Shown here piece by piece: positions 6,196 through 57,359 of a DNA stretch of 64,000 bases. The notes beneath the pieces were generated by a model, which saw nothing but the letters and a program-made list of their open reading frames with translations, had not been told where the DNA came from and did no database searches. The DNA lies in assembly GCA_034401795.1 (NCBI GenBank), contig CM067373.1, positions 85,228,521 through 85,292,520 on the forward strand, given 5' to 3'. Source of the DNA: Chaetoderma sp. LZ-2023a. Its lineage: Eukaryota > Mollusca > Caudofoveata > Chaetodermatida > Chaetodermatidae. Within the stretch, counting starts at the first letter, position 1, and each line of letters opens with the position of its first letter. The position numbers and the translations under genes are program-made.

Positions 6196-6883
6196 ACCGG
6201 CTTCAACAGAATCTGGTGCAGTCGTCTGGATAATAGTCACTGGTTTAGTTGGCACCGCATTCTTTTTGGCGCTCCTTTGAGAGCAGCTAGACTAACAGTT
6301 AGTTATTGAGTCCAGGCATATAAGTGCTTAGACCTCGAATGGCTTATGCCTACTTAACTTTGATAATGAGTTGCCTTCCTGGCGGATGAGCACAGGCATC
6401 CATCTCGGAATGTACCTATTGAGCCACTCCCTCAGGCTGATGGCGAATACATGTTGTCTGGGCGATGAGTCCATAGCCAAAGAGCAACTTTTAGCCACAT
6501 GTCAGCACAACCACAAATAACAAGACAAGGACAAAACAACAACACAGTAGCATTGAATAAGCACCATATCTATTTACAGCGAGGCTGAAGAAGCAGATGA
6601 CAGACTATTTTGACCTTCCTGGAAGTCCTGGAAATCCTATTCGCTTCTCCCAGTCACTGTATGGTTAGTCTGCTATCCGCATCTTCTGCTGGCGCTGATC
6701 ATGTCGAGAACAAACCATATAAGACTCATTCACTTGAAGCTAACGTTTACCTGCTTTAGGGTTGTGTAATTGCCCCGAGGTTCACTGCTAGGCCGTTCCT
6801 AATATAATTAATGTTTGCTCGGTGAATCCTACTTTGGCTTAAAGGCTATCCTAGAGGTACCAGTGAGGGTACATGGGAAGTGA
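6196..6883. other. Spacer between divergent copies A and B, nothing recognised
   Basis: I find no similarity to the LTR parts on either side and no coding signal. Confidence 0.5.
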
Positions 6884-7114
6884 CAGGCCAGCATCGCTTT
6901 TCTTTGTAAGAATCGTTACCAGAATCGAACGAGGATTCCAAAACTGTTCACAGAATCAAAATCGGTTAAAAAATGGCCGAGATATCAGAGTATATTCATC
7001 CAATATTTTGCGCTCCCTTCTAAAATAAACATCGTCCTACCACACGTGCTTCCTAGGGTGAAGGCCAGCAGATTAAGTGGTCAGCAATCATACCTTCTAT
7101 ATGACGCACGCGCT

Positions 7115-7160
7115 GATTGGTCGAGACGTCCTGGCGTGACGTCACCATTATGTATTAAAG
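7115..7160 (+). promoter_or_regulatory. LTR promoter, copy B (CCAAT, CRE, TATA)
   Basis: An inverted CCAAT box GATTGG (7115-7120), a perfect CRE palindrome TGACGTCA (7137-7144) and a weakened TATA box TATTAAA (7153-7159) lie 8 nt apart from CRE to TATA. The same trio with the same spacing recurs in three other LTRs. Confidence 0.8.
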
Positions 7161-8787
7161 GAGCTCCAGAATCTCAGTCGACAGGCCGTTGGTGGTGAAA
7201 CTGCCAGAGATAAAGACGTGTATTACTGCTTACTGTTAGCCCCGGTGGACCATAACCTGCGTGCAACAGTGCCATTCGGTTTTGAGCTCACGTCTCTGGA
7301 GCACACGCACCGCGCCACAAGTTAAGTTTTTGTAAGCTCCCGGCAGATACCACTGGGGAGAGGGTTCCCAAATCCAGCAAACTTCTCTGTGGTGCGGCCT
7401 TTTGGCCGTTATGTAACATCCCCCAGTATGAAGAACATGTGGTGTTCGATGATATCGCGCCAGATCTGCCGTACCACGCTGAAAATGTGGTAGGACCACT
7501 TCGCACATGTCTGGTGCTTCCAATTAACATTTTAGACCAGAGTCCGGATAAGGACATTGCTTTATGCACTGCACGAGCATGAGCTATGCGGTGTGTATCA
7601 TATTGTGCCTCGAAAGATGTATCACATAGCAATTTAACTTTCAACATAGGCCTTTAGTAATAGAAAGGGCATCTTTAATCGGCATTAATATGGAACTTTC
7701 CACGGCCGCTTAATTCTCAACTTTATATTCAGTACATGACAATCTACTATCCATCCAACGCGAGATCTTCTTCACCGTTCTTGAGTATGAGGTGCATCAG
7801 TTAGATCGTCTGCGGCTAATCTCCAAAGAGCGACTACGGAATCGTGTTAGCTCGCGCCACATACATGTGACGTTTCAACAATAGTGACGTTTTAGGACAT
7901 TTTTGTACCGATGAGTAATAAGTACTCCTAATATTATTATTTGACTATTTTTCCAGTAGATACCGATTACTTTTAGGTACTGCACGGTCGGATGTGAGCT
8001 GTATTATATTTTACTGTATATATTTATTTTATTTAGTCCTGATGACTAACAGGCACTTCAAGGTCGGATGTGACCACATTATTTTACTGTATTGTATAGT
8101 TTTGTAATATAGCAGTAGCCATCCACGTTAATATTTTTGTTTAGTTACTTATTTATATTCTACAAAAATACTTCGCTTAGGTTACACTATGCACCAACAA
8201 CAAACACACCACCTTGTTTCTCCCCATCAGCAACAATTTTCACTAAGATCGCAGTTCATGTTCGCACTAGCGAGCGTGACATGCGGTCACTAAACCTAAC
8301 TATAATAGCTTGGTAGGATATATTTAAAAGTAGCTAGGGACGACTACTTCAAAGGAGACCTGTTTGGGTAGAGTCTCTTTTCCGAGTGCTGCGGATCCGT
8401 AATACCCCGCGCACCGGCAAGTTTGTACAAATTGTCCATCTACCTTAGGGCATCCTAAATTCTATATATTGAGTAGTGATTAAGTTCTAGAGAAGGCCCA
8501 CAGAAATAAAGCGACATCTACTAAATCATTATCTTTAACTCACATACGGTGACAGTGTTGAATTCCACTTAAATCATCCACCCTACCTTCACGTAAACCG
8601 GCATGCATCCCAATAACGTATAATTACACTAGGTTTATTAATTCTCTCAGTGTTAGCATTGTTTGAATAGGAGAGTGGCCCTTTTTGCCATCTCTCCTCC
8701 TCCGCTTTGGCGTTGTACGCATTTTCCTGTGACGGAGGCCCACACAACTTAACTAAATTTAGCAGCACACGAGTACAATTGTTTGTC

Positions 8788-16968: not shown

Positions 16969-16972
16969 AGGG

Positions 16973-16992
16973 TGGCGCCCGATTTGGGGCTT
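16973..16992 (+). other. Primer-binding site, copy C
   Basis: TGGCGCCCGATTTGGGGCTT, complementary to the 3' end of tRNA-Lys(CUU) with few mismatches. It follows an LTR end reading AGCTAAGGG. Confidence 0.82.
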
Positions 16993-21234: not shown

Positions 21235-21238
21235 AGGG

Positions 21239-21258
21239 TGGCGCCCGATTTGGGGCTT
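21239..21258 (+). other. Primer-binding site, copy D
   Basis: TGGCGCCCGATTTGGGGCTT, as in copy C. Confidence 0.82.
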
Positions 21259-24599: not shown

Positions 24600-26259
24600 T
24601 ATCTGCATGTGACACTCCATCGACACCGGAGACAACCGACCCATTCGATGTCTTCCCATTCGATGTCTTCCCATTCAATGTCTTCCCATTCACAAGGAGG
24701 CGGAAGCACATCAACAAGTGAATGACATGTTGCAGACAGGCATAATAGAGCCATCAGCATCCCCCTGAGCCAGTTCCATTGTACTAGCAGGCAAAAAGGA
24801 TGGATCTTAGCGGTTTTGTATAGACTACTGCCGCCTTAATGATCTTAGCGTCAAGGACACTTATCTATTACCTCGGATAGATCAGGCCTTAGATTCCTTG
24901 TCTGGAGCCAAGTGGTTTTGTACCCTTGACATAGCTAGTGGATAATGGCAGGTAGCAATGGATAAGGCTGATCAGGAGAAGACCGCGTTTATATGCTGAG
25001 ATGGTCTTTTCCAGTTCCGCAAGATGCCCTACGGATTGTGCAACGCTCCTGGAATGTTTGAGCATCTCATTGAGCAGGTATTAACTCCCCTGCAATGGGA
25101 GATCTGTCTCTGTTACACCAACGACATAATCGTCTTTGGCTCCTCGTTTGAGCAAACTTTGTCCAACCTGGACAAAGTTCTAATTCACTTTCACACAGCA
25201 AATTTGAAGCTCAAACGCAACAAGTGTCATTTTTTTAGACAGAACATCGAGTTCCTGGGACACATCATATCCGGCGATGGAATGGCTACTCAGCCATCAA
25301 AAACTAAAGCAGTAGCAGAGTGGCAGACACCCACTTCAGTCACGGACACCCGGAGTTTCCTGGGTCTCTGCCAGTCCTATCGTCGTTACATCCGTCACTT
25401 TAGCGAGATTGCATCACCATTATTTAGGATCACTGAAAAGGATCAACCATTCGAGTGGATGAGTGAGTGTGAAGGGTCCTTCAGGGCGCTGAAGGAACTC
25501 TTGACGACCACCCCATTTCTTGCTCATCCTATCCCTAACCTCGATTTCATCTTAAACACTGATGCATCGGCGTATGCCATTGGTGCAGTTCTATCTCAGG
25601 TCACAGAAGATGGAACAGAGCAGGTACTGGGTTTTGGTTCACATACTCTGAATAAAACAGAGAAATGCTACGCAACCACTAAGAGAGAATTGTTACCTGT
25701 GGTCTATTTCGTCAAGTACTATAAACACTTTCTGTACAGGCACCCATTTACCCTGCATACAGATCATGCCTCCCTATGCTGGCTCAAAGACCTAAAAAAT
25801 CTGGAGAGCCAGGTAGCGAGGTGGCAGGAATCCCTGCAAGCCTTTAACTTCAATGTTGTTCATAGACCCGGCAAACTGCATGGAAATACTGATGCCCTGA
25901 GCAGAATCAGTCGCGCGGAAGAACAAGAAGTGGCTACCACCATGACACATACTACACAGCCATCTCCAGTGTTCCCCGAATTGTGGTGCACAGAGTGGAA
26001 TATGGAGACAGTCGCTCATGAACAAGCAACAGATGCGCAAACACAGAACTTATATGCGTGGATCCAGGAGGGGGTACGTCCTCTTAAGGAGTCTGTTACA
26101 GCACTTTCTGTGATGGCAAAATACTACTATCAAAGGTTTCGAGAATGTCATATGCAAGATGACATCCTCTACATTAACATCTGGATAGTGATCCCGGAGC
26201 ATTATAGTGAAACCATCTTAGTGCAACTGCACGACAGTGCTGAACACCTAGCCATCTAG
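24600..26259 (+). pseudogene. Reverse transcriptase and RNase H, copy D
   Basis: The RT entry (24790-25010) has stops, among them in KKDGS*RFC, ASG*WQV and FIC*DGL. From 25024 a 411-codon frame is open: MPYGLCNAPGMFEHLIEQVL, the YxDD box as C-Y-T-N-D-I (25114-25125), the RT thumb, RNase H (LNTDASAYAIGAVLSQ, KRELLPVVYF, LHTDHASLCWLK, HGNTDALSRI) and the start of the integrase zinc domain (LHDSAEHLAI, an HX4H). The first Asp of YxDD is Asn, so this RT is catalytically dead whatever the stops. Confidence 0.92.
24643..24687 (+). repeat. 15-bp tandem triplication inside pol
   Basis: Three units of ATTCGATGTCTTCCC (third with one change) add five-residue repeats (PIRCL) to the segment before RT. 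Copies A and B have a single unit here. Confidence 0.85.
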
Positions 26260-26975
26260 TGAACTACAACACGAATTGAACAGAGATTCCCCTGGATTGG
26301 GATATGCGATAGTGTGAGGGCATGGGTCGCCAAATGTGTTAAAATTGTTGGTGCACCGTGGGAGCATGTGGCTATTGATGTGCTCGGACCCTTGAATACG
26401 ATGGATGAAGGAAATAAGTACATCCTTGTATTACAAGATTATTTTATGAAGTGGGTAGAAGCATTTGCTTTGCCGGACAAAGAGGCATCTACAGTAGCAG
26501 ATGTCCTGACAAGCAATGTGCTCTGCTGATTCGGTATGCCCTATGAACTGCACTCCGACCAAGGAAGTAATTTTGGGAGCTGGCTGATCTCTGAGCTCTG
26601 CAAATTGTTTCATACAGTCAAAACACTCATAACGCCCTACAATTCGAGTAGTGATGGGATTGCAGAACGGTTCAACCACACCTTGGCAGAGATGCTGACA
26701 AAGGAAGCATGCCTTGATTGTTGGGATTGAGATCTGCGACTCCCATATGTGCTCATGGCATACCGCCCTTCAATCCATTCCAGCACAGGTTATACCCCTG
26801 TTCGGTTAATGAGTCCATGAATTAGCCTTACCCCTAGATCTAGCCATGCCCCAGATTCCAGGAGAGAAAACTTCACCATCTCCCTATGTAGAGCTCATGC
26901 AGCAGCGAATAGAACAGACCCATGAGCTGGTGAGAGCAACATTATCCACTACACAGCGACGTCAGAAAGCGTGGC
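26260..26975 (+). pseudogene. Integrase core, copy D
   Basis: After a TAG at 26257 the frame encodes the end of the zinc domain (WVAKC; the CIPCQRR part seen in copy B is deleted) and the DDE core: HVAIDVLGPL (26371), ELHSDQGSNF (26546) and AERFNHTL (26664). Stops occur near 26528 and 26728. It would insert the cDNA into chromatin. Confidence 0.87.
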
Positions 26976-27890
26976 ATGACCGGTGAGTGCATGGAGACCC
27001 ATATGAGGTGGGGGAAAATGGTTTGGGTTCACGATTCGCGACGTTCTGCAAATGTGCCAAGTAAACCGAGTTACCAGTGGAAAGGCCCTTATGTGGTAGA
27101 AGGTAAGAAGTTGGACGTGACCTATCATATCCATGCCTCGGATGGCCTGACCTCAGTCATACACTTTGATCGACTTAAACCTTGTGTCAGTGACGACCCA
27201 GTGGCAGAGCTCGGACAGAGCGTTCCACGGGACACTGGTACGCAGACAGATGTCTCTACGGAAACAAGTATTCCCGACGTTAGTCCAGAACACCACGGTG
27301 TCAATTCGACCCCTCTCCTGCCAAGCCAGGAGTCTGGCGAACATATGACTAACGCTGAGGACGATGATGAGATACGTACTCGCCATCTCAGAGCGGGTCT
27401 ACACGACCTGGGAAGTCATATCTGAAGACTCTCGTTTGTGCTGTCCAAGGAGAAGGGCGGAAAAGTTGTTTCGCCGACCTATTACTATTCCCACACACTT
27501 CATGCTTTTACCCCAATTATAGAGTTACCACTAGCGGAAGCTGAGGCTGCCCTGGGGCAGGCTTCTTGTGGGGTGGAACATGTAATAAATAGCATGGAAG
27601 TAAAGAGGCTTCTGAGACCTTGGCTTGTTTTGAAGAACAGCAAACACCGCACAACTTGGTGTACCCCTCCACAACATCAAATCGCGAGACCACCACCTAT
27701 CCAAGGTGCATCCCATCCTATGCCACCACCACACCCACTCCAACTCGCGGAGGTGGCATCCCACACCAAAGCAACCCCCCCCCCGCTGGTAGTGGGCAGG
27801 GAAGCAGCCTGTTCAGCAGACTGTCGGCTTGACTATTCCCGGTACTTAAACACTATGACAGAGTACCAACCGTCGTGTAAGGGGAGATGA
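26976..27890 (+). pseudogene. Integrase GPY/F-like tail and Pol C-terminus, copy D
   Basis: It encodes YQWKGPYVVEGKKLDVTYHI and SVIHFDRLKPC, a GPY/F-type module, then an acidic tail with RDTGTQTDVS (G-T-Q-T at 27237-27248). A frameshift at about 27425 leads to a Pro/His-rich end stopping near 27890. No chromodomain is recognised. The same tail occurs in copies A and E. Confidence 0.75.
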
Positions 27891-29860
27891 CCATCCCCAT
27901 CCAAAGGGCATCCCTAACCACAACCACCCTACCAAGTCCCCTGTGAGCAGTCCAAGCATCACACCCAGCCAGGAGCATATAGAACACACTTGCAAGGCTG
28001 GATATGTCAATTCATCATTGCGCGAATGCCACATATATACCCGGTTATAGAGAGGATATAACGGGGACATTCAACACCATCAACAACATCGTTAGCATGC
28101 ACCTAACTTTTGTAACATAAAAACTTAGAGACACCTTTTTCTGCAACATTTTCTCCCACACGAATGCGGGGAATTCATCACTTTCCGCAACCCAAAATTT
28201 CCACAACAGCAACAGAATTGGCATTCCCCATCTTGTAAACCTGGATCTGCCCAACTCACATTATGCCAGCATCTTACAGCAGCCGCCGACTTCCCTACAA
28301 CAGAACACCACCATCATCAACACGAGTCAACATTTTCCGCAAACATTCCCTTATTCGGTGTGCAGAAAACCGATCATATGGAAAGGAGGGACAACACCAC
28401 AGCATCGCACTATGTGGGATCCCCCACCCCACCCCTGATACGTCATACGTAAACAGCCAAACTACCACACGTCAATCACACGTAATAACAGTTAATATTA
28501 TTAAGAGAGCAAGGTTCCCGCAGTCTTTCGTCCATATCAAGTAGGAATTTGCTACTGAACGGAAAATCGATAATGGTCTGATTCAAGTTATGACAGCACC
28601 CTTCTTGGTCATCCACACTCTAAAGTAACTCAGTCCCGTCCTCGGACTCGCCATTACAGAGCGAAATACAACATGTCCGATAAAGTTGACACTACCCACA
28701 TGCAGCTGCGCCGCCCCACTGCCATAAAAACGTCACACTTCACAACAGTGCACGAATCATCCGCAGATAAGCAGCCATGCGTATCAATAAAATTCACCCA
28801 CATGACAGAGGCACAGACACTCAGGATGACTGTATTCACAATCTCCATACAGCAGCATTGTAAATTGTAAAACGGTGGCACGCACTTTCCGAGCTGTATT
28901 GTAATAATAATTAAGTTTGGTCTAGGTGAGGTGAGACTAGTCCTACCCACAGAAGAGGATGCTTGGCAGTCCACCCACTCGGAAAATACAGTCCAGCTTC
29001 GCGGGGTCAGTAGACTTGGTTTCCGCAAGACATGGAGCTGGTCAAACCAAACAATAAATTACAGGCAGCTCTACTGTTCTAATTTTGATTGATATCATGA
29101 CTGTTCTACCATGTATACACATCATTAGCTCGCGGGCTGATGAAGCAGCATCAAAACTTCGACAGTATAATCATCATGGAGAATTTCAAATATTCTCTTC
29201 CCTACATATTCCAGCCACTAATCAACACAGGCTGGAATACATCTACTACACGTGAGAGGAGGCGCATGTAAAAGATCACACGCCTATAAATGGATGCTGT
29301 TCTGAGGAACATAATAATGAAAACATATATTTCCATTTTTCGCATCGACTACGAACTGTCAGCACATCAAAACTTCGCCATCACATACAGATTGCCTACG
29401 TTTCCAATCAACCACATGCTTTCTAAACAAGAATCACGTGATCTCCACTTCCAATTTTCAGTAAATTGGGTCAAAGGCTAAAAAAAAAAGAAATCGCCCT
29501 AGACGTATCTACCACAGCGTGATGGACGAGGCAAGAGGTGGTGAGTCGGGGCCAAGTTGCTGACGTCATCACGCTCTCCCACACACCATCAGGCGTTCCA
29601 GCCTGAAATTTTAACAGACGAGTTTATAAGCATCCAACTCGAAAATCCACTTCATGCTAATTAAAAGGTGAGCTTCCACAGGAATAAGTAGTTCCGGATT
29701 TTAACGTTGATCGGAGACTCGATTTTCTGCTGAGTGGGGATGAAAGCAGCTATTCTTCCTTCCTATGTTTATATTTGCCCTCTTTACACGAAGGGAATAT
29801 TTGATCCCACCACAGGAGAATTAAAATTAAATATTTCCATATTTGGCGGGACCGACTCAC
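27891..29860 (+). other. 3' non-coding region of copy D, between pol and the accessory ORF
   Basis: Positions 28335-29860 match 51541-53110 of copy F in order, so this is part of the element and not flank. I see short open frames but no conserved protein. A CRE palindrome (29561-29568) sits inside a block GCTGACGTCATCACGCTCTC that is repeated at 32631-32650. Confidence 0.6.
29440..29590 (+). repeat. Direct repeat R2, copy 1
   Basis: About 150 nt, from GATCTCCACTTC through CTACCACAGCGTGATGGA to CACGCTCTCCCACA. Copies are at 32500-32655 and about 52725-52830. Confidence 0.8.
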
Positions 29861-29895
29861 CCTAAAACCTTCGGGTGTGGTCATCTGCCCTCCTG

Positions 29896-29919
29896 TGACG
29901 TCACCAAAATGTATAAAAG
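29896..29919 (+). promoter_or_regulatory. Internal promoter, copy D (CRE and TATA)
   Basis: A perfect CRE TGACGTCA (29896-29903), 8 nt, then TATAAAAG (29912-29919). The upstream block GGTGTGGTCATC is shared with the other two internal promoters (39640s and 53118s). The first accessory ORF start codon lies 211 nt downstream. Confidence 0.8.
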
Positions 29920-30122
29920 GAGGAAAGCGCGCACTGAAACTTCATCCAATTGTCAAACTCGACACAAGGAAAGATCGAGCATTAGGCTACTTTCATGTCA
30001 CAAACCAAATTCTGCTGTTTTCTTATTATTACTTTATGTTAATTGTCCAGGAAAGTTATGAAGTGTTATGAAAGTTTAGTTAGGTTAGGCAGTTCCGCAA
30101 ATCACCATCATGTGGAGGTAGT

Positions 30123-31013
30123 ATGTCACTCGCGGAGGACCATGACTTGTCCAACAGCTTGGAAGAATTGGCACCGGCTCGCATCAGGAAGAAGTATCCA
30201 TGTACAGCTTTACAGCATAATGGACAGCCGTGCACGCATGCGTTTTTCAGGAATTCGGACTTGACACTCTACGTCAATTGCGACCATTTACTACAGAGAG
30301 CATTCTGTGCGGACTGCAAATACCTGTATTCAGCTACTCTGTATGGTGTAACACATGCGTTATCTTTCAAACATCGTGCGTTGATTGTGACATTAAAGCC
30401 TGGTGAGCAGAGCGAAGATACAGATATCCTCACACCACGTTTTGAAACTAGACTTCCAATAACCATGCTTCCAACTGGAAAAATGGCAAAGACTAAACGC
30501 ACTAAACGATGACAAACTGACTTTACGCAAGTAGCTAGACCAACAGCATCCACAACACCGCCATCCAGCACCAGCACTCTTGCACCCATCACCACCACAC
30601 TGGCAGCACCCATAAGAACTGCACTGGTAGCACCTGCAGCATTGGTATTCACACCAACTGTAGTATCCGCTCTGGCAGCACCCGCAGTGACAACACCGGC
30701 AGCACACAGCACTTCAGCATCATCTGCATCCATGATAGGACAGCCAATATCGGTAGTGCTAATAACTCTTGTGAAAATCAGTGATCCAGTTTTACAGGAC
30801 ATTTCTGGCAGTTCAATATCTCCGCTCAGTTTAGTCATCGACGAGGAGATAAGCCTTCCGGAAGCCGTCATCACCACCACCACACGGCAGACCAGCACAG
30901 CGACATCCATGTGCAGCACTATCCTTTCCAGAGATCCTGCTGTTAGAAAGACTACTACGCTGGATCGACCCTATGCGGGAAAATTCAGATTAGCTCATCA
31001 GCCCAAGATCTGA
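30123..31013 (+). pseudogene. Accessory ORF in env position, copy D (one internal stop)
   Basis: It starts M-S-L-A-E-D, as in copies E and F. The N-terminal 100 residues carry Cys/His residues (PCTHAFFRNSDLTLYVNCDH, then FCADCKYLY), suggesting a zinc-binding fold like a C2H2 finger plus a C-x2-C pair. The frame stays open to 31013 except for one TGA at 30510-30512. It continues through a Thr/Ala/Pro-rich stretch to DPAVRKTTTLDRPYAGKF, a block conserved in copy F. I do not recognise the family. It is not an envelope: there is no signal peptide or membrane segment. A nucleic-acid-binding role is only inferred from the finger. Confidence 0.7.
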
Positions 31014-32200: not shown

Positions 32201-32499
32201 TGTTTGTTAAGTTGAATAGGGGAATCTACTCGAGCCAAGAGAAATACTCAGTCCTTACTTGGAACCTTAGATTTAGTCAGATAGGCCCAGCAGTCATTCA
32301 AGATAAATATCGTCACCTTACCATCAGTCAGACGAGGCGAGCCGACTGCCGTCATCCTTCTCCATTACCGATAGCCGTTGTCACAGCAACACTATCCAGC
32401 TACCGGTAGTGAAGCGGGATCATCATCATTGTCGTTACTAAGTAAGAAGAAGAAGTTTCCCATCATCGAGACCTCTGAAGAGAATCCCGAAATCTTCAA

Positions 32500-32655
32500 T
32501 GTGATCTCCACCTTCTAATTTCCAGTAAATCGGATCAACGGGATCAATGGCTATACACGAAAGAACCGACCTAGACGTATCTACCACAGCGTGATGGAAG
32601 AGGCGAGAGGTGGTGAGTTGGTGCCAAGTCGCTGACGTCATCACGCTCTCCCACA
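32500..32655 (+). repeat. Direct repeat R2, copy 2
   Basis: Matches 29440-29590. It places a second CRE (32633-32640) just before the 3' LTR start. Confidence 0.8.
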
Positions 32656-33604
32656 TTTAATTAAGGTACGTTGGAACTTGAGCGTTCTCGGCGGAAGAGA
32701 GCGCCCATGTGAGCTATTGTTCTAGCTCAATCAGGTAGTAGAATAAAGAAAAAAGCATTCACCACGAAATAAAACAAACAAAAAAAGAAAAGGCCTGGAA
32801 ACATAATTCCGGATCAAAATTTAAAACTAAAAGTATGCCTCCCTCCCAAACTCTTTCGTACCTCTATGTGCACTTTTCTGATAATTATGCACTCTCGCGT
32901 CACTACTCCTCACGGTTACGTGCCTACTTGGGAAGTCTATAATTCCTGCCTAGCGTGCTGCCATGCGTTCGATCCATGAACCGTTGATCATTTGTCATGG
33001 GTGTCAAACTAGGAGGGGGTGGTGTAGTATAGATCGATCAGACGGGTACGGACCATCCCAGCTAGGCTGGGTACGGGATAACCGCTCCGGGTACGTTCCA
33101 AGCACGCCACCCTGGGTAGGATAGTACGCATGTATAAAGCCCTATGAGAGGGGTATCATTAAAATGGCTAAGTCCGTAAGAATGCATAGCACGCATGCGT
33201 GCGCAAGTTAGAGCTTCCCTGACAACACGTGTCAGTATTGGGAGAGAGTGTATGCTTATAGTGTACAGAGTTGGTACTAGTGATTTTTTAAAATCACTGT
33301 ATTCTCGTCGTTCTTGGAAGCACTCAGGGGCCATGTTCACAAAGGTGTCGTTAAACAGGCTGCTTAGCGATGTCGTTAACCAAGTTTACGATGCCATAGT
33401 GTTACTGTTTACGACAGTTAGACAAAGGTGTCATTATCTATTCGTTATTGCATCGCCTACCTATTGTCGTTGAAAGGGGAAGCACACTGCCGTGGAAATG
33501 ACATCGACAAATCATGTGTAGGTTTCACTCTCGCCCCGTGCATGTTTTGCCTATATAATTTGCGGTGTATCTGAATGCTGTTCATCAGTTCGAATCTTGC
33601 CACG

Positions 33605-35161
<1,557 letters not shown>

Positions 35162-37221: not shown

Positions 37222-37693
37222 GACTGATAGTTATAGTATTCTGTTAGGTCTGGCGGTATATACGTATAATACTAAGCATACAAATGTTCCATTTCACTCC
37301 TAGCGACACAATCGTGTAAAAACGACAACCAACGACAGGTTACAGGTCACCATTAAACTAACGATGTCGTTGACGAAATTCTCTTTTAACAACATGTTTG
37401 TGATTACACAATTTTTCTCAACGATACCATAACGATGCCGTTAAGGCGAACGACACCTTTGTGAACATACACCCAGGACCGGAATGAAACGATGATTTCA
37501 GAACTTTTTACATTTTTAAAATCGGGCCAGAAATTGCCGAGTTATCGTTAAAAGGCTCACTTAATTTATCTTCAAAATATTGCTTTGACATCGTAATCGC
37601 ATGTATGTATTAAATGAATGGAGAATGCGCTGCTCACGTGATAGCCACGTCACCACTTCTAGCTGCACGCTGCTTGGCTACTGCTCGCCTGTT

Positions 37694-37739
37694 GATTGGC
37701 TGAAGCGTCCTGCCTCTGACGTCACGAGTAGTACAAAAG
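37694..37739 (+). promoter_or_regulatory. LTR promoter, D/E LTR (CCAAT, CRE, TATA)
   Basis: GATTGG (37694-37699), TGACGTCA (37717-37724) and TACAAAAG (37732-37739), 7 nt from CRE to TATA-like box. The TATA is degraded at its third base. Confidence 0.75.
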
Positions 37740-38937
37740 GAGCCAGAAATCGAGAACCGAGAGCACTTTTGCCAGCAAGACTGCCGGACCAGCTCAGTGC
37801 AAGACGTGGGAGAACTGCTAACTGACTGGGGTACCTGCACCACAGCAGTGCCATTCGGAATTAAGATCTCCTGCGCCGGTGAGCAGTCTTGGACATCTGC
37901 AATCACGAATTTTGGAAGCTCCCGGACGGCCATCCGGGGGCAAGATAAAATAATATAAGAACTCCCTCTCCGAAACAACTCACAGAGGAGATTCTCTGCG
38001 GATGGGCCTTGCGAGCCTAATGTACATTCTACAGGATGTAGAGCCGAGCTGATTCTTGATGGATAACTCAGCGGATCTTCTGGACCACACTGAAAAGTGG
38101 TATCAAACTTCTGCGCAGCATGTCGCGTGTGTTAATCAACTTTTAGACCACAGTCTGGTGGAACTAAGCTTGGTGCGTCACAAAAGGTATGCGACGTATC
38201 CCGCACCATGTACCCAGTTTAATGTATATGCATATATAGTTACAATTGTAGCCCTCCTTGTTAATGGGCAACTTTCAAACTACCGTTACCAGATGGAAAC
38301 TTTATAACACACTGTGTAAATTTATGTATCAGTTATAATGACTGGCTAATGGACATCCTACAGACGTTCTTCTTCACTGGCTTTAGAGTGAGCCGCATCA
38401 ACAGTCAGCCTGCGTATATCTTCCCAGCAACTTCGGAATCATGCCACTTCACGCTACCGATCTGTAGTGCATCAACACCCGTGATCTATGAACTGTTTCC
38501 ATACTGATGACCAATAGGTACTCAAGTAGCTATACTATTGACCTATGAATTCTTCGGAAATCATCTGTCCCGCCTTTATGTAAACCATATTTTTGCTCAT
38601 TTACTAGCAAACGAGTACCATTGTTTGTATAGGCTTTACTTTTAATTATTATCATCATGTCCAGACTTTTAAATTAGTTAATGGACAGACATACTGGTGA
38701 AATGAACAGTTAGAACGAGACCGTGCGGTTCAATCTCGGCGGCAATGGGCGCACGGCCCCACTGTAACGTAATCATTCCACTGGCTCCAGAAGCCGTTTT
38801 TTTACCTTCCGGAGAGTCACGATACAGGATCTGTAACCTCGAGAACTGTCGCTAACCAGCCCTCCTGCGCATCCTGTACATGTGGTGCAATGGAGTGGAG
38901 CAACATAGCGGATCAGCGCGTAACTCCGCAAGCTACA

Positions 38938-39573
38938 CTCATGTGTCAGAAGATAGAACATGCACATAAGCTGGTTAGAGAAACTTTATCCACTGTACAC
39001 CAGCGACAGAAAACCTGGCATACGCGCCGTGTACATGGAGATCCAATTGATGTAGGAAAACTGGTTTGGGCTCACGATATGTGACATTCTGCAAATATGC
39101 CGAGTAAACTGAGTTACCATTGGAAAGGCACTTATGTGGTAGTAGGTAAGAAGTCGGACATGTCCTACCAAATATGTGCCTTGGATGGCCTGACCTCAGT
39201 CATCCACTTCGATCATCTTAAACATTGTGATGGTGACGATGCAGTACCTGAGCTCGGCCTGGACGATACGTGCAACACAGGTACCCAGACTGATGTCTCC
39301 TCGGAGACAACTATTCCCGACGTTAGTCCAGGGCACCGCGGCTCCAGTTCAACCCCTTGCCTACTAAGCCACGAGTTGGGTGAACAAATGACCCACGCTG
39401 AGGATGATGACGAGCCACGTACTCGACATCTCCCTCCTCAGAGCGGGTCTACTGGGTTTGGTAAACCATATTTGAAGACCCTTTCGTTTGTGCTGTCCAT
39501 GGGGAAGGATGGAAAGGTTGTTCCCCCTTCCTCTTCCCATTCCCAACCACTTCATGATATAACCCCATTATAG
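38938..39573 (+). pseudogene. Integrase tail and Pol C-terminus, copy E
   Basis: It encodes YHWKGTYVVVGKKSDMSYQI and SVIHFDHLKHC (GPY/F-like), then CNTGTQTDVSSETTIPDVSP (G-T-Q-T at 39280-39291) and a Ser/His-rich end. One frame is open from 39097 to 39573, the longest intact stretch of this tail. It stops about 95 nt before the internal promoter. Confidence 0.8.
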
Positions 39574-39668
39574 AGTTGCCACAAGCAGAGGGATAAAACG
39601 GACAAATTTCACAAACATCAATGACTGCATCGCCATAGACTTTTCGGGTGTGGTCATCTGCCCTTCTC

Positions 39669-39692
39669 TGATGTCATCAAACACTATAAAAG
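39669..39692 (+). promoter_or_regulatory. Internal promoter, copy E
   Basis: A CRE variant TGATGTCA (39669-39676), 8 nt, then TATAAAAG (39685-39692). GGTGTGGTCATC lies upstream. The accessory start codon is 240 nt downstream. Confidence 0.78.
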
Positions 39693-39805
39693 GAAGGAAT
39701 CACGCACGAAATCTTCATCTTCCTAACAAGGTCAACACCAGGGAGGATCACAAGCACTAGGCCATTTTCGTGTTACAAACCAAATTCCGCTTTATAATTA
39801 TTCGC

Positions 39806-39808
<3 letters not shown>

Positions 39809-39867
<59 letters not shown>
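39809..39867. repeat. (ATT)n microsatellite
   Basis: About 20 ATT units in the 5' untranslated part of the accessory ORF of copy E. Copies D and F have only TTATTATT here, so the run expanded in place. Confidence 0.96.
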
Positions 39868-39924: not shown

Positions 39925-41070
39925 ATGTCATTAGGAGAAGATTTCATGCTCTCAGAAGTGTCGAAGAGGAGACTTAAACTAAACCGCAAGTAATAGCTAA
40001 ACATTTTCTGTGTACTTGGACATCTGACAGTGGCACTCCGTGCAGAAAGAGATTTTCTCGAAATTCTGATCTTCGTTTACATTACGATCGGGGCCACCTT
40101 CTTCAACGGCCTTACTGCAGAGATGGCAAGTATTTATATTTTGCACCACGCTATGGGACCACACATACTACTCCGTCGAAATTTAGTGTAGTGATTGTAA
40201 CATTAAATACTGGTGAAAGACATGAGAACAGGGCAATTCTTGGCACCAGTGTAGTGGAGAGAACACGGGTACCTGTTATATCAGTAAACAAAACAGTCAG
40301 GCATGGCACAAATTAAAGCACCCACGAGTAATGCAGTCATCAGCACCACCGCCAAAATCCAAAACTACATCAGTTTCAGAACGAAGTGCAGCATCGCAGT
40401 CACCTTCCGAATTATTGATCATCATGAACCCAGAGTCGGTGGAAGCACCAACTACCACCGCACCAGCCACCGCACCACTCACTCATGTCACCATCAGTAC
40501 CACCACGGCCACCACATCGACATCGCAAGCAGACTCCTCAGTACGGAAGGCCACTACATGAAGCAAACTATACTCCGGGAAGCAGCGGATCGCCCATCAG
40601 ACGCTGGACATATTACCAATACCTCATGTGACTGCAAGCACATTACTACATGCAGCCAAGCATAGGAAAAAGACACCCACTACTGCGTCAGCCAGCAGCA
40701 CCGTCAACACCACTGTTTCTTCCATTCCACCAGCAGCAGCAATTTCCAGTACCGACACAACTGCAACCACCAGCACCAGCGACACGACCACCGCATCATC
40801 CACGATCGCGACGTCAACAGGATCCATGACAGTAACCGCCACCGCAATCTCCAGCACAGCATCCAACACTGCCAGTTCCATGATCGCCACCACAAGCTTC
40901 AGAACCTCCACACTACGCAGACGTCCAGCATCACCACAGTCACCGCACTCCAGATATTGTCAGCATCCTCATCTTCAGATAGTGACATGGCCATTTATGT
41001 GATAGACATTTCCGCAACACGAGCACATCCACTGCATCCATTATTAGTAGATCATGGTACCCAGACTTGT
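39925..41070 (+). pseudogene. Accessory ORF, copy E, frameshifted
   Basis: The start M-S-L-G-E-D-F-M-L-S-E matches copies D and F. The finger is clearest here: GTPCRKRFSRNSDLRLHYDR followed by GHLLQR fits F-x5-L-x2-H-x4-H of a C2H2 finger, with one of the two later Cys replaced by Gly (CRDGKYLYFA). A Thr/Ser-rich tail follows in shifted frames, ending D-H-G-T-Q-T-C and stop (G-T-Q-T at 41056-41067). Several frameshifts. Confidence 0.7.
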
Positions 41071-42448
41071 TGAGGGAACTTTACACCACTCATATAAGAA
41101 TTGTTTTTAATATACATAAAGGAGAAACTTACAGATAAACATTATTATGACTGCCATGCTACTATTATTATAATTTACTAAATATACTTTTCTTATTATT
41201 ATATTTACTAAAATTGAAACCCTGTCCCTAGAATGAATATGGCCTTTCTGCACAGCTATGCTATTACATAGCTGCGCCTCACTATTTATTATTGAAGATT
41301 TGTATGCTATAATTGCACCTAATGCGGTGTACGAAAATAGCATACTGCAATAAAAAGTCTTATTTTAATCATGCCATTCCAGCAATTGGCTGGGGCTGCC
41401 TGATATATTTTTCAAAACTTATTATCATTCTATTCTTCTGATTACTTTTCTTATCGCTATAAGACGAGACGGACATGAGGGGTAATGGAAGCCATTCGTG
41501 CCGACTCTCTCTAAAGAGCCGCACTATATGTATGCCTTCAATAATATTACATGGCATATATATTTTTATATTTTTATATATACATATATACTTTTATAAT
41601 TTACTTTAATATTGATTCTGGTACATTGGAGCCTGGACGTTCTTGGATGGAGAATAATTACCCATCACAAGAAAACGTCCTTGCGAGCTATTGCTTTCGT
41701 CAAATCACGGTAATAAAGTAAAAGTTAGCACGCACTGCAACATGAAAAGAAAAAAAGCCTAGACAAATAAAAACCAGGCTAAATCAAAATGAAAAAGCAT
41801 GCCTCCCTCCCAAACTCCTTCGCACATCTATGTACCTTTCTCATATGAATGCGCACCTAACGTGTCACTCTATCCACTCGGCTACTCGCCTACTTGAGAA
41901 GTCGATAATTCTTGCCTAGCATACACCCTGTGGCAATCGATCCACAGTGCAGTATCATCTGTCCCAGGTGCCAAACTAGGGGGGGGGGGAGCTGGATGGG
42001 TGGTGTGGCGTGGATCGACTGGTCCAGAATGAACCATCCCAGTCATCTGGGTGCGGAAGGGCCGGACCTGTGACATTCCAAGCTCGCCCCCCACTGGGTA
42101 GGACGATAAGCATAAATGGCCATATAAGAGAGGCTCAGAGTCCGTGAGATGACCCGACGAGCATGCACGTTCATATGAGATAGCCTACATACGTGTGTTA
42201 GCGTGTGGAGAGAGTGGCATCTTATGAATATTTCGGGCCTGTGTCCGTAATTTCTTATATACAGGGCCTCATCGCGGTCCTTAGTAAGAACCGGTACCAG
42301 AATCGAACGAGGATTCCAAAACTGTTTACAGAATCAAAATAGGTTCAGAAATGGCTGAAATATCAGAGAATATTCATCCAATATTTTGAGCTCCTGAAGG
42401 CCAGCAGATTACGTGGTCAGCAACCATACCTTCTATATGACGCACGCT

Positions 42449-42494
42449 GATTGGTCGAGACGTCCTGGCTTGACATCGCCGTTTAGTATAAAAG
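42449..42494 (+). promoter_or_regulatory. LTR promoter, copy E 3' LTR
   Basis: GATTGG (42449-42454), a CRE decayed to TGACATCG (42471-42478), and a perfect TATAAAAG (42487-42494), 8 nt apart. Confidence 0.78.
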
Positions 42495-44287
42495 GAGCTC
42501 CAGAATCTCAGTCGACAGTTAGTTGGTGGTGTGACTGCCAGAGATAAAGACATGTATTACTACTTACTGTTTGCCCGGTGGACCATAACCTACAACATTG
42601 CCACAAGGTTTTGAGCTCACGTCTCTGGAGCACACGCACCGCACCGAAAGCTAAGTTTTTGTAAGCTCCCAGCAGATATCACCGGGGTCAAAATCTAGAT
42701 TAAAAGAAGGTTTCCCAAATTCAACGAACTTCAGAGGGACCTTCTCTGCAGTGCGGCCTTTTGGCCATTATGTAACATCTCAACCAGTATGTAGAACGTG
42801 TTGTGTTCAATGATATCTCGCCAGATCTGCCGTACCACGCTAAAAATGTAGTAGGACAAACTTCGCACATGTCTAGTGCTTCCAATTAACATTTAGACCA
42901 CAGTCTGGATAAGGACATTGCTTTATGCACCGCATGAGCTATGCGGTGTGTATCGTCTTGTGACTCGAAAGATGTATCATGTATTAATTTAACATGGTAG
43001 CCCTTCAGTAATAGAAATAGAGTTTGAGCCGTATCAGTTAGATCGTCTGCGGCTAACCATCAAGCAGCGACTACGGAATCGTGCCAACTTGTGCAGCATA
43101 CATGTGACGTTTCAACAACAGTGATGTTTTAGGACATTTTTGTACCGATGACTAATAGGTACTCCGTAATATTATTATTTGACTATTTTTCCAGTAGGTA
43201 CAGATTACTTTTAGGTACCGCAAGATCGGATGTGACCTTTATTATATTGTAGGGTATATATTTATTTTATTTAGTGCTGATGACTAACAGGCACCGCAAT
43301 GGCGGATATGACATGATTGTATTACTGTATTGTATAGTTATATCCAAGTTAAAACTTTTGTTTAGTTACTTATTTATATTCTACAAAAATACTTGGACAT
43401 CACTTCGCTTAAGTTACACTATACACCAACAACACACACACCACCTTATTTCTCTTCTCCAACAACAATTTTTCACTAAGGTCGCTGTTCATGTTTTCAC
43501 CTCACTAGCGAACATGACATGAGGCCACTAAACCTAACTATACTAGCTCGGTAGGATAGGTTTAAAAGTAGCTAGGGACGACTACTCCAAAGGAGACTTG
43601 TTTGTGTAAAGCCTCTTTTCCGAGTGCTGCGGATCCGTTATACCCCGCATTCGATGACTGCATACATCCCCTCTGTATCTTTGGATAGCTGTTAGTTTTT
43701 TACCAAAGTAGGAATCACTGCAAAAATATAATTGTGTTAGGCTGACCCCGTAGTGCATTGTTTTGGGCAACTTCCTTAATCCTAAAGTGGATAAACGTTA
43801 GCTCCAGGGAGCGGATCTCACATGGTCCACTCTCGAAATATTAGGTGACGGATAAAGACACAGATTGCCATCTACCTCAACAGTGACTGGGTACGGCCTT
43901 CGAGCCCTCCATGCATTCACAGGAAGGTCACAATAGTTGGATATCTGTTTCTTTCTCCACACTGTAAATAAATATGTGCTTTCTAAAATGCTTGTGTAAT
44001 GTGACTTGTCCCCGTGTTGTTATTTATAGTCATGCTGCTGTATGCGGAGGGATCGCTACTTGATTCTGAAACTACCACCAGGTGACATGTTTGCGGTCTG
44101 AGGGGGATGCTCCGTGGTGGTGCCCATAGTGATGACCGAGGATTCTCACCAGGCAGACTTTCTTGTTAAAGATAGGTAAACACAAAGCCACTTGCGGTCT
44201 AAAATTAGAACTCTTAGAACTAAAAACAAACTGTTAGATTAGGTTTTATTGAACTTCTCCTCTGCTTCGGCGTTGTAGGCATTTCCT

Positions 44288-47600: not shown

Positions 47601-47689
47601 CATTGAATCAAAGTTCTCTATGTTACTCCATGAGCCATCGCTTCTATTTATATACTTTGAATTCCAATATCAAAGTAACTATACAGATA

Positions 47690-51540: not shown

Positions 51541-53110
51541 CACATTTTCCGCAACCCCTTCTTATCTAGTTACGGGGGGGGGGGGGGGACGGCTCATATG
51601 GATAGAAAGATTGCACGACAGCCATCTACAGTATGCGTCACGGGAGAAACGTTTGTCCAATGTCCCTTTTCCTCTCCCACGATGTCGTACGGGAAGAGCC
51701 AAAGACTACATACATCATTTACACGTAATAACAGTCAATATTATTAAGAGAGCAAGATGGCGGAATTGTCGTCAGTCACGAGTAGGATTTTGCTACCGAG
51801 AAGTTGAATTCGATAATGGATTGATCAAAGTTACGACAGCATCTAACATCTACACTCTAAAGTAACTCTGTCCCGCCCACGGGCTCGGCCATTACAGAGC
51901 GAAATACCTTCAAGGTTCGATAAAGTGGACATCATGCTGCCTCCCCCACTCCCACACCTGGCGGCAATAAAAACATCACCTTCACCACAGCGCAAGTATC
52001 ATCCACAGATAATTATCCACGCGTATCAAACTCAAATCACCAACATGTCAGGCCCATAGACACTCAGGTTGACTGTATTCACAATCTCCAAACGACGGCA
52101 TTGTAAATTGTAACACTGTGTGCACCCATTTCCGAGTTGTACTGTAATTTAACCATTATTAAATGGTATTAATGTGTCTGGTCTAGGCCGGGACGGGCCT
52201 AGTTCTACCCATCGAGGAGAATGCTTGGCAGCCCTCCCGCTCGGAAAACACAGCTATTTTGTCGGGATCAGTAACTTTGATCTACCGCCTGAATAGATCT
52301 GTTTAAACCACACATCAAATTACTTACAGCTTTACTGTTATATTTTGATTAAGAACACAACTGCTCTACCGTGCTACAAATCATTAGCGCACAAATCATT
52401 AGCGCACGGCCGGTAAAGTGGCATAAAAAATCCAACAGTATAATTACAAGGACAATTTCAAAAATTCTCTTCTCTGCGTTCCAGTCCCCAATCAACACTG
52501 GCTGAGAACTACCTTTTACAGACAAGTATAAGACGCATGTTTAAGAACCCGCGAAAATAAGGACATTATTTTTAATGGAATCCTGATATAACATGTATAT
52601 TTCCATATCTCTCATCTGCAAAGACTACACCTCAGCAATGATATCTCGGCCATCGCCATAAAAAGCACATATGTTTCCGATCAACCACGTGTTTCCAAGA
52701 GCCACGTAACATTTACTGCTATTTCCAGTAAATTGGATCACAAATGCGCGACTACCACAGCGTGATGGAGGAGTGGCGAGGGTGAGTCGGGGTAAGTACC
52801 GCTGACGTCACCAGGCTCCCACACACCTCATCGGATGCTCCCAGCCTAAAATTAAAACAGGCAAGTTTATAAGCATCCAATCTGTAAAACCGCTTCACGT
52901 TAATTAAAAGATGATGCTCCACGGGAATAAGTAGTACCCTGTTTTTATGTTGATCGGAGAATTTTAAATGCGCTAAAATAAGACTAAATTAGTGAGCCAT
53001 TCCTCTTATAATTAAAAGTACTCGCTTTATACGGGAGGAATTAATCGTGTGACGATCAGAATGGGAAAAAGAACAACTCTCCATATAAGGCTGACTGACT
53101 CACCTGCCAA
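51541..53110 (+). other. 3' non-coding region, copy F
   Basis: Co-linear with 28335-29860. It includes a local poly-G run (about 51575-51589), repeat R2 (about 52725-52830) and a CRE (52803-52810). The frame 51485-51865 runs through but is not conserved in copy D. Confidence 0.6.
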
Positions 53111-53138
53111 ACTTTCAGGTGTGGTCATCCGCCGTCTA

Positions 53139-53162
53139 TGACATCACTAAATAGTATAAAAA
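53139..53162 (+). promoter_or_regulatory. Internal promoter, copy F
   Basis: A CRE variant TGACATCA (53139-53146), 8 nt, TATAAAAA (53155-53162), with GGTGTGGTCATC upstream. The accessory start codon is 223 nt downstream. Confidence 0.77.
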
Positions 53163-53377
53163 GAGGAAGCGTGCTCTGAAACTTCGTCTTCCCATCAAAA
53201 CTCGACACCATTGAAGAACAACTGGCATTAGGCTTCTTTCGTGTCAAAAACTAAATTCTGCTGTTTCTTTATTATTAATTTATTATCATAATACTTGGCC
53301 TGGAAAGTTAAAAATGAAGAGATAGGGTTTTAGGTTTTAATTAGGTTCCCGCAACCAACTACCGTGCGGGAACGAGA

Positions 53378-54707
53378 TGTCACTCCTCGAAGATTTAGCG
53401 TTGTCGGATGCATCTGAAGAAGAATCGGTGACAGTTTCTAAAAGATTCCTCTGAAGCTCATTATTAGCTAGCGGAGAACCCTGTACCAGAACTTTTACGA
53501 GAAATTCCGACCGCACACTTCATATTAACAAGGATCATCTCCTCCAGACAGCCTTCTGTGTAACGTGTCAATATCTCTATACCGCTACCCACTATGGAGT
53601 GACCCATGCGCTCCATCATCATCACCATGTGTTAGAAGTGACATTAATTCCTGGGCAAGAAAGCGACGATCGTGCCGCTTTAGCCACACATTTTGAATCT
53701 CGGTTACCAGTTAAAGTTCTCCCGACAGAGAAGATGGCCCGGAGGAAGAATACTACCCGCAGACATCACGTTAGTCATCGTCCTGCCGTGGCTACATTAG
53801 CTAATATACCAGCAGCCAGACGTGAAATTATACCCTCAGTCGCGTCAGGGAGCACTATGCCACCTCCAGTCACCACATCCACACCCGTCCTGAAGCAGAG
53901 CAAGAAGCACAAATCCTCAGGAGAATCCAGTCCGGCAGCACCAGCATCCGTAACCAGCCACAAAACTATAACGACTACACCCGCACCCATATTGTCTGGA
54001 GCAATGGCGTCCACTCAGCCAATATCGGTAGTTATCATGGCTCCTACGGAGATGGAGATCCCAAGATACCCACAGTCGCCATCTACTCCTGACCTGACCA
54101 TAGACGCGGCACTGGGATCATCACAGCCTGCATCTATTAGCATCACTCCAACCCATGTCATCCAGCAGCCCCATCCCAGTCTTTCTGATCCAGCAATCAG
54201 GAAGGGGACTACGCCTGAACGACCATATGTGGGAAAAAGATGTATCGCTCACACACAGGACATGCGGGAAAAAGATGTATCGCTCACACACAGGACATCC
54301 AGGCCATGCCCAATGTCACCACAAATCGCCTTTTAAAGTACGCTAAGAATCGGAAGATGTCATCACCTGCTGCATCCACTCCCGCATCACTGCCTCGGCC
54401 TATAATACGACTCACCGCCATCACCACGACAATCGCCACAGCCACCGCAACCATCAGGAAGACCACAGCATCAGCCACCTCAACACCAACCAGCCCTACC
54501 GCAGCCGTACGAACAAATATTCTAGCATCAGCAGTAACTGTGAAAGACATTATAGACACTCATATTCCCGCAAATATCACTTCAGATATTTCTGAAAGCG
54601 CCAGTGATAGTGAACGCATCTCAGCATTAATAATTCATCCACCACGACCTACCACCGTCAGTCGCGGGACCCAGACTCAGTGGGGAAATTTTTCAGCAGA
54701 GGTGTGA
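53378..54707 (+). pseudogene. Accessory ORF, copy F, frameshifted
   Basis: It starts M-S-L-L-E-D-L-A-L-S. The finger region reads EPCTRTFTRNSDRTLHINKD, then HLLQTAFCVTCQYLY. A His run, a long Thr/Ser/Pro-rich part and the block DPAIRKGTTPERPYVGKR follow. The C-terminus is ISESASDSERISALIIHPP, then S-R-G-T-Q-T-Q-W-G (G-T-Q-T at 54666-54677) and a stop at 54707. Two or three frameshifts, and a 33-36 nt tandem duplication at 54233-54300 (GGAAAAAGATGTATCGCTCA twice). This copy shows the full length, about 440 residues. Confidence 0.72.
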
Positions 54708-56177
54708 TCGTTTGTGTTAGAGCAGAACAGCAGTGATGCGACTCATGGAAAATTATTATTTATTTGTTTATTTTTGAAATACTTTTCTTTTTATTATATA
54801 TGTTAGATGAATTGAATCCCGTCCCTAGGATGACTACGGTTATCCGACACAGCTGCACAACTTAGTTGCCCAGCTGTGTCCCACACAAAAATAGCACTGC
54901 GGACTCCGGTGGTGTAAGAACGTCGTGTGTGACGTAAAGTATGCAACACCCCGCAGTGCAATAATGTCATAATCCCGTCACGCAATCTCAGCTATGTTGA
55001 GGCTGCCTGATAAACTAACTTTTAAGATATTATTATGTTTTATTTTTCTTATTATTTTTCTGCCTGCCTTAGATGTCAGGACGGCTATGGGGTCAGCTAG
55101 AGCTGCCCATTGCAGACCTGCTTTAATGGGCCGCAAATAATTGTAATTAAAGATACGTGTTGTGTACACCTTTATTTACCCAGGGTGTGCAAGTAATTCG
55201 GTTGTAATATTTTAAATACCCCGTAAGGGTATGTTACGTGAAAATTATATACGTGTATTCTATATATATTATTATATATCTTAGCTTAAATTGTGGTACG
55301 TTGGAGCGTGGGTGTTCTCTGCGGAGATAATAATTATCCGCACCCAAAGAGAACACCCATGCGAGCTATTTTTTAGAAATCATTGGCTAAATAAAGTTAA
55401 AAGCACACACCAAAATATTAAAACAAAAAAAGAGAAAAGACCTGGAAAAATAATTCCATGTCAAAAGTTAAAACTAAAAGTATGCCTCCCCTCTCCTCTT
55501 TGGCAACTCTATGTGCCCTGTCTCTTAAATGCGCTTCTATTGCGTCACTACTCCTCTCAGGCCATGCGGCTACCCATGAAGTCTATAATTCCCACCTAGC
55601 GTACGTACGTGCGTCGATCCACAATGAATGATCATTTGCCACGGATGTCAAACTAGCAGGGGGTGGTGTAGTTCGGATTGACTGTTTGGTGCCGGCCATA
55701 CCAGCTAAGCTGGGTATGCACCACCCGTCCTGGATTCGTTCCCTGAACATGCCCCCCTGGGTAGAGCTATAAGCGTATATGGGCATATGAGAGAGATCGT
55801 GTTGTAAAACACGACTAAGTTCGTTAAAGCGCATAGCGTGCATGCACACGCTTAATATTATTCTGACAAGAGCACGTATTTCATGACCAAGATAGGATGG
55901 CACTTTTAGTGTACCAAGTAGGTACATTGTAATCCTTTATCATTACTTGTCCCCGCCGAATCTGGCATTAATCAAGACCAGAATTCGACTGGCTTTCCGA
56001 ATCTGTAAACCATTTCAAATCAGTTAAGAAATGGTTATCCACGGAAAACCCCTTTTGATTATCTTCAAAATATTGTCATGACGTCGTAACCACGTGTACA
56101 CAGAACTTCTAGAATGTTCTAAATCATTCGACTGCATTATTATTAGCAACGCGCCGATTGGCTATTGCTCGACCGAT

Positions 56178-56222
56178 GATTGGTTGAAGCCTGCGCCTAT
56201 GACATCGTGAGTAGTATAAAAG
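56178..56222 (+). promoter_or_regulatory. LTR promoter, copy F
   Basis: GATTGG (56178-56183), a decayed CRE TGACATCG (56200-56207), and TATAAAAG (56215-56222), 7 nt apart. The order and spacing agree with the other LTRs. Confidence 0.78.
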
Positions 56223-57359
56223 GAGATGAAATCCAGAACTCGAGAGTATTCTCGGCCAGGGGCCGAATAGGTTGGATCTGTATGCAGCAACTATCAGCAA
56301 GACGGGCATTAAATAGATCCCGTCGGTCTGTTTCTCTTCCGTATCCAGCAGAAATTCAACCCACTGCACTAAATCAATTTTGTATCTCCGAATTGTATGG
56401 AGGCACTTTTGAATGTTGTTCACGAATATCTCAAGAATTAACCTGGAACATAAAACTTGCGGTGAGGCCTTTCGCGGCCTGAACATGTGATCCTACAGAT
56501 GTAGAGGCAGCGATGTTCTTTGGTGGATGACTCGCCGGATCTGCCGGCCACGCCAAAAAGTGGTTATTCAACCATCCTCGCACTGATGTCGTGCAGGATT
56601 ATTTAAACTTTTTGACTGCAGCAAGTAAACTTTGCCCAGTACGTCTTAAGAGCTAACTGACGTACCCCGCACCATTAAGCTTAGTTATGTATCTTCATCC
56701 GTATTCAACAACCCTGGCTTATGATTGGGTTGTTATTAACTTCCATCCATACCATCGGTGTACAGGAACTTTCGTCTTAGCAGTAATGTTATTGTATCTC
56801 TTACTGACTACTCGTTAGACATTCTATATTGTGATTACAGTCCTGAGTTCGATCCGCTCCCGTCCTGGACTGTGTGCGGAAATCCTGTTTGTGGGAACCG
56901 ACATGGGGAATTTTCCAGCTTCCAGAGAATGCGTCAACTCACGTCACCCCAAGGATGACGTATCAATTTCAGTAACACGATAGCCCATGCTTACGAATGG
57001 CTACCGATTATTCAAGTAACTATACTTAACATTTTAATTATTCCGTTAATTACAGCATTAATAATTATACTTCATCTGTATAAATGGTCCTGATGACTAA
57101 AAGGAACTGTAACGTCCTTCGGACCGCTAGTTATAATTTCTGTATCTGTTTATAGTTATTCTTATTTTCTGTAAGGTGTTTTTACTAACCACACCGTAGT
57201 AGGTTTCTCAACCTGTACGTTATATATTATTCTAATCATTTCACATTGTATTACTTGTTCTGGTTAGTTTTATATGTGGCAAGTAGCCATCAGTTTATAA
57301 AAAGAACAGCAGTGCACATAGGAAACACTATACAGCAACATTTATATATGCAGCACGTT

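Follow-up and report, generated by a model that had tools for sequence, protein, structure and literature searches.

A candidate sense-strand internal promoter ahead of an accessory ORF in decayed Ty3-type retrotransposons of a chaetodermatid mollusc

Introduction

Retrotransposons are usually pictured with one promoter. Grande of maize is a Ty3-type element, and the product of its gene23 is a nuclear protein, as Gomez-Orte reportedly found in 2013. Gene23 is an accessory ORF between pol and the 3′ LTR with a promoter of its own (PMC7264820), which resembles the arrangement described below, but it runs antisense to gag-pol whereas the ORF of our locus (ORF3) is sense. Foamy viruses transcribe a regulatory gene from an internal promoter in sense orientation, a property which sets them apart from all other retroviruses (PMC3798896). 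Like the candidate promoter at our locus, this second sense TATA promoter lies towards the 3′ end of the coding sequences in front of the regulatory gene, and TATA boxes occur in the LTR and the internal promoter alike (PMC3798896). However, the foamy virus promoter resides within env and its gene is Tas, whereas the candidate promoter reported here follows pol, ORF3 is C2H2-like, and no env family was found among the ORFs scanned, against the env gene enclosing the internal promoter that is expected of Spumaretrovirinae. In our reading, the likeness would reflect convergence.

Two further systems carry accessory genes by another route. The LTR retrotransposons of bdelloid rotifers share with our locus variable ORF3 modules after pol, common to several families, but these are of the GDSL, DEDDy, env, CC and TM types, are typically produced from spliced messages, and are presented in a main text that contains neither the word zinc nor the word promoter (PMC5408684). 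CERV of Cer1, a Ty3-type element of C. elegans, differs by its spliced exons and its role in RNA export, and the main text describing it is again without the word promoter (PMC10309623). Accessory ORFs after pol are already known; the new part would be a sense internal promoter in a Ty3-type element, if the promoter works. Among the papers listed in searches of mostly open-access literature, judged by titles and abstract openings, none describes a Ty3 element in which an internal promoter in sense orientation precedes a 3′ ORF.

Results

The analysed window, a stretch of 64,000 nt from contig CM067373.1 of Chaetoderma sp. LZ-2023a, holds a heap of decayed Ty3-type elements lying in both orientations and rearranged by duplications and deletions. 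At 23.6–27.5 kb, copy D contains a protease-like stretch under the Pfam cut-off, reverse transcriptase, RNase H and an integrase C-terminus. The end of the reverse transcriptase and the RNase H are located at 25000..26259 (+; RT_RNaseH 3.3e-31, RT_RNaseH_2 2.1e-31, RVT_1 5.8e-13) and the integrase C-terminal piece at 26934..27425 (+; Integrase_p58_C 2.7e-6); this order, RVT_1 and RT_RNaseH followed by Integrase_p58_C, places copy D in Ty3/gypsy. Named relatives among the best 120 of 286 matches include Ty3-G, 412, 297 and 17.6, and a comparison of the reverse transcriptase piece with viral contigs gave no relatives. After pol, copy D continues with 2.3 kb, in which the longest plus-strand ORF has 154 residues and matches no family, and is completed in turn by the promoter-like block, by ORF3 and by an LTR that is truncated. 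Copy E is arranged as LTR, gag-position piece, integrase C-terminus (38953..39589, +; ORF stop 39571–39573), block, ORF3 and LTR; its segment 38953–39589 matches 26909–27538 of copy D with 77.5% DNA identity. The gag piece is assigned by position, from its match to the region following the LTR in other copies, and its two scanned ORFs gave no Pfam match. Copy F comprises a piece similar to the protease region of D and, after it, block, ORF3 and LTR. Pfam found no env family in the 19 ORFs scanned or in the three ORF3 pieces; Rfam at gathering scores gave no match, and no tRNA was found. Elsewhere in the window, a tandem duplication of about 5 kb (13355–18376 and 18376–22667) is 96–98% identical over its matching parts, with one breakpoint within the reverse transcriptase region, and an ORF with a Myb/SANT-like DNA-binding domain (33626–34162; PF13873, 3.6e-17) lies just past the truncated LTR of copy D.

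The LTRs of these copies lie on the plus strand. That of copy B, incomplete on its left side, spans 6883..8410 together with the leader (promoter 7137/7153) and is 79–84% identical to 42261–43648. The LTR after copy E (41584..42908; promoter 42471/42487) matches the LTR pieces before the same copy, 37478–37546 corresponding to 42296–42364 (74%) and 37983–38158 to 42732–42908 (71%); the promoter on the left side (37717..37738) reads CRE, 7 nt, TACAAAA. Copy E may be a mosaic, because a portion of the LTR on its left side resembles that of C1 at 90%. The LTR after copy F occupies 55262..56675 (promoter 56200/56215). Of the 3′ LTR of copy D only the left part remains (32656..33198), from 32695 onwards 73% identical to 55347–55845 and 67% to 41669–42133, and the scan described below found no CRE-TATA pair in it.

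An earlier note on this DNA had reported a CRE-like octamer, 8 nt and a TATA box 211–240 nt upstream of an ORF starting M-S-L-x-E-D, and this arrangement is indeed present in D, E and F. The CRE of copy D (29896..29903, +; TGACGTCA) is followed by TATAAAA at 29912..29918, that of copy E starts at 39669 (TGATGTCA; TATA 39685) and that of copy F at 53139 (TGACATCA; TATA 53155). The spacer is 8 nt and the TATA box TATAAAA in all three. Counted from the initial T of TATAAAA, the ATG follows after 211 nt in D (30123; MSLAED), 240 nt in E (39925; MSLGED) and 222 nt in F (53377; MSLLED). The further statement that the LTR promoters contain the same pair with a spacing of 7–8 nt also holds, as seen at 7137 (8 nt), 37717 (7), 42471 (8) and 56200 (7).

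How often such pairs arise by chance was estimated by scanning the whole window on both strands for a CRE with at most one mismatch, a spacer of 7–8 nt and a TATA-like hexamer, with 60 first-order Markov sequences as null. Five matches were obtained, three of them internal and two in LTRs (7137 and 37717), against a null mean of 0.23 and a maximum of 2. Allowing two CRE mismatches gave 12 matches, seven of them in these elements (with the LTR sites 42471 and 56200 added) and five in unrelated places, against a null mean of 1.9 and a maximum of 6. The CRE alone is little evidence in this window because 13 exact octamers are present where about one is expected. Five of these 13 exact TGACGTCA octamers form a cluster at 46854–48448 that adjoins an 84-nt tandem array (48736–49791).

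The pair is embedded in a block of about 172 nt in copy D (29866..30037, +) that is kept in copies E (39639..39805, +) and F (53110..53285, +) with 71–80% identity between copies. An nhmmer profile built from the three block copies found strong matches (E below 1e-50) only to these three in the window, and all three ORF3 copies of the window have the block. In copy E, the CRE starts 96 nt past the pol ORF stop. Between D and F, the block differs at 34 of 172 positions and the upstream stretch at 406 of 1368 (p 0.007, a generous value because the block had been chosen beforehand for being conserved), and only in this comparison is it more conserved than its neighbourhood. Between D and E, the block (43/165, 26%) has diverged about as much as the integrase third positions (32/115, 28%), and constraint beyond common descent is therefore not clear. 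The conservation of the block probably reflects shared descent for the most part, and gives modest evidence for a promoter. Counting copies A, D and E, block and ORF3 follow the integrase end in two of three; in copy A (minus strand), neither matches within the 1.7 kb of window after the integrase. Copy A is a possible but not decisive counter-example, because block and ORF3 would both fall within 1.7 kb in E, but the block begins only 2.3 kb on in D.

Upstream of the block, copy D contains a stretch without coding phase (28442..29860, +) that matches copy F (51684..53100, +) with about 70% identity and with differences spread evenly over the phases (134/132/140), and that has no match in copy E. 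This 1.4-kb stretch is retained at about 70% identity, yet the third positions of the adjacent ORF3 are nearly saturated. Within it, a CRE-bearing segment (29438..29583, +; CRE 29561) recurs with 82.7% identity at 32501–32655, directly before the 3′ LTR of copy D; the segment, some 150 nt long, has been retained by D and F alike (in F at 52721–52825; CRE 52803) and might be a shared regulatory element. We considered the region 28442–30037 as an LTR and rejected it, since beyond roughly 200 nt around 32453–32660 there is no second copy near the ORF3 of D. Between block and ORF3, a TTA microsatellite has expanded in copy E (39806–39866), at a site occupied by a short TTATTATTA in D and F.

The earlier note had also suggested that the internal promoter is derived from, or homologous to, the LTR promoter, and derivation found no support in a comparison of the flanks. 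With CRE and TATA set aside, 40 nt upstream and 40 nt downstream were compared between internal and LTR promoters against a column-shuffled null. The upstream identity amounts to 12.0 of 40 (null 10.5, p 0.13) and the downstream identity to 9.4 of 40 (null 10.0, p 0.67), both at chance level. GATTGG is found 22–23 nt before the CRE in four of four LTR promoters and in none of the three internal promoters. After its own copies, the profile of the internal block matches next best, weakly, the LTR cores of B and EG (E 0.025 and 0.44). These data show a logic common to LTR and internal promoter and do not support common descent; an LTR origin of the internal promoter was rejected as a demonstrated fact, there being no flank similarity beyond the core.

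ORF3 is broken in all three copies. In copy D, a first piece with MSLAED and finger patterns (30123..30512, +) ends with an in-frame stop (30510–30512), and the same frame resumes in an S/T/P/A-rich second piece (30513..31013, +; 53% S/T/P/A) that aligns to the tails of F and of a metagenomic relative, P0121; ORF3 is accordingly not continuous up to 31013. Copy E (39925..41073, +) is broken into the pieces 39925–39993, 39978–40316, 40562–41002 and 40666–41073, with a stop at 39991–39993 followed by a change of frame. Copy F (53377..54707, +) has a stop at 53452–53454, a long piece (53455–54336) and a further piece (54219–54707). A tetrapeptide, GTQT, occurs near the end of ORF3 pieces of E (40666–41073) and F (54219–54707) and also in the pol tails of A (2023–2187, minus strand), D (26934–27425) and E (39085–39573); we take it to recall the dynein light chain LC8 motif.

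The protein identities of ORF3 are 57% (D-F), 41% (D-E) and 42% (E-F), while third positions differ at 66/102, 75/110 and 71/100 sites, respectively (65–71%), close to the 73–74% expected from composition only (chance identity 0.26–0.27). Over the three codon positions the differences are distributed as 34/28/66 of 102 for D-F (p 5e-8), 53/43/75 of 110 for D-E (p 6e-5) and 48/45/71 of 100 for E-F (p 3e-4). The corresponding pN/pS values of 0.35, 0.47 and 0.48 are overestimates because synonymous sites are saturated. Related proteins, near-saturated third positions and pN/pS of 0.35–0.48 together show long protein-level selection; judged by these sequence patterns, ORF3 is a genuine former accessory gene.

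A profile of the three-copy alignment, run with a threshold of E 10 over 6557 candidates drawn from 5.8 billion proteins, retrieved a single match, P0121, a protein of 329 residues from a 12-kb contig of a JGI metagenome (E 4e-94, 59% to F). The ORF3 piece of copy D alone gave no match in the protein search or in genome contigs, and P0121 has no relatives among viral contigs. Two finger patterns, C-x9-C-x12-H-x4-H and then C-x2-C-x12-H-x4/5-H, which were defined post hoc after the alignment had been seen, are both complete in P0121; D and F share the second pattern and E the first. One or more finger ligands are missing from D and likewise from E, and the F piece starts past the first finger. 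Pfam assigned no family at cut-off to the ORF3 pieces or P0121; zf-C2H2 appeared in one of the three pieces (E 0.015) and not in P0121. In the PDB search, the profile placed Zif268 third (E 1.5) and P0121 placed it second (E 8.6), in both cases after unrelated chains and without significance. The tail consists of 44–53% S/T/P/A. Two structure models were too poor to be usable for a fold search (mean pLDDT 37 and 36). The assignment of ORF3 as an envelope was rejected, as Pfam scans of the ORF3 pieces and P0121 gave no env family.

ORF3 and its surroundings appear to differ in age. Between D and E, ORF3 third positions differ at 75/110 sites against 43/165 in the block (p 4e-12) and 32/115 at integrase third positions; between D and F, the upstream stretch (406/1368) and the block (34/172) stand beside ORF3 third positions with 66/102. 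ORF3 is much more diverged than the promoter before it and therefore looks older than the surrounding DNA. This pattern suggests that ORF3 cassettes have been swapped between elements, the breakpoint falling at about 30040–30120, and the difference in age offers a testable case of accessory-gene exchange.

Discussion

On the basis of the described arrangement we propose, with a probability of roughly 0.5, that D, E and F represent decayed members of a family of Ty3-type LTR elements ending in pol, internal promoter, ORF3 and 3′ LTR, whose ORF3 would have been expressed from its own sense-strand promoter. The putative signals of the block, CRE, TATA box and predicted start, fit a polymerase II promoter. 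RNA polymerase II would start 31–32 nt past the initial T of the TATA box, where TTC(A/G)TC stands in all three copies, and produce a short sense mRNA covering ORF3 and terminating in the 3′ LTR. This predicted start is separated from MSL by five (D), two (E) and one (F) upstream ATGs, which would be a load on translation, at least in the decayed copy D. The predicted protein of roughly 300–440 residues would have an N-terminus of acidic character, followed by two zinc fingers of C2H2-like type and an extended tail rich in S/T/P/A; its most likely role is that of a nuclear regulator binding DNA or RNA. Since the CRE-TATA core is common to LTR and internal promoter, a single CREB/ATF-type signal of the host could start both. 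A feedback of the ORF3 product on the LTR, of the kind exerted by Tas of foamy viruses, is our guess by analogy.

The main rival to an own promoter is a spliced LTR transcript yielding ORF3, as in Cer1, with the CRE-TATA block being a passenger or having another role in the genomic RNA, and we regard this as a serious, though less likely, possibility. Splicing is the described route for such ORFs (Cer1 CERV, PMC10309623; rotifers, PMC5408684), TTAG-GT is seen by eye ahead of the ATG in all three copies, and the conservation of the block between D and E is no greater than that of the neighbouring pol. A possible weak donor is TTTGTAAGC, common to the leaders of B and EG; however, four LTR leaders compared by a simple search for words, not by a proper splice-site scan, showed only TTTGTAAGC and CCAGTATG to be common to these two, and neither occurred in E5 or F3. 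Splicing would also turn the presence of a CRE-TATA pair at the right place in three of three ORF3 copies into a coincidence.

Coincidence itself would mean that, CREs being abundant, one came to lie beside a TATA box in the ancestor of D, E and F. The excess of exact CREs (13 against about one) and the non-independence of the three copies are in line with it, but the core is that of four LTR promoters, and exact spacing and TATAAAA are kept in all three diverged copies, so that we consider chance very improbable. Slightly better placed, but still improbable, is the idea that the internal promoter is a relic LTR and ORF3 came from another LTR element inserted or recombined in. It would account for the LTR-like core and for the repetition of 29438–29583 of copy D directly before the 3′ LTR (32501–32655, 83%), but no second block copy exists downstream of ORF3, the window holding three strong matches only, LTR similarity is missing outside the core, and ORF3 matches no Pfam family, gag included.

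Starting from an own promoter of ORF3, a more far-reaching scenario can be sketched, which we hold to be rather unlikely as a whole. The elements would have evolved a two-promoter plan apart from foamy viruses, in which CREs drive both gag-pol, from the LTR, and a zinc-finger regulator, from the internal promoter in sense orientation; the regulator would feed back on both promoters, and regulator cassettes would have been swapped behind a constant promoter. Even without this scenario, a sense internal promoter in a Ty3-type element would show that the two-promoter plan arose more than once and would point to self-regulation in retrotransposons.
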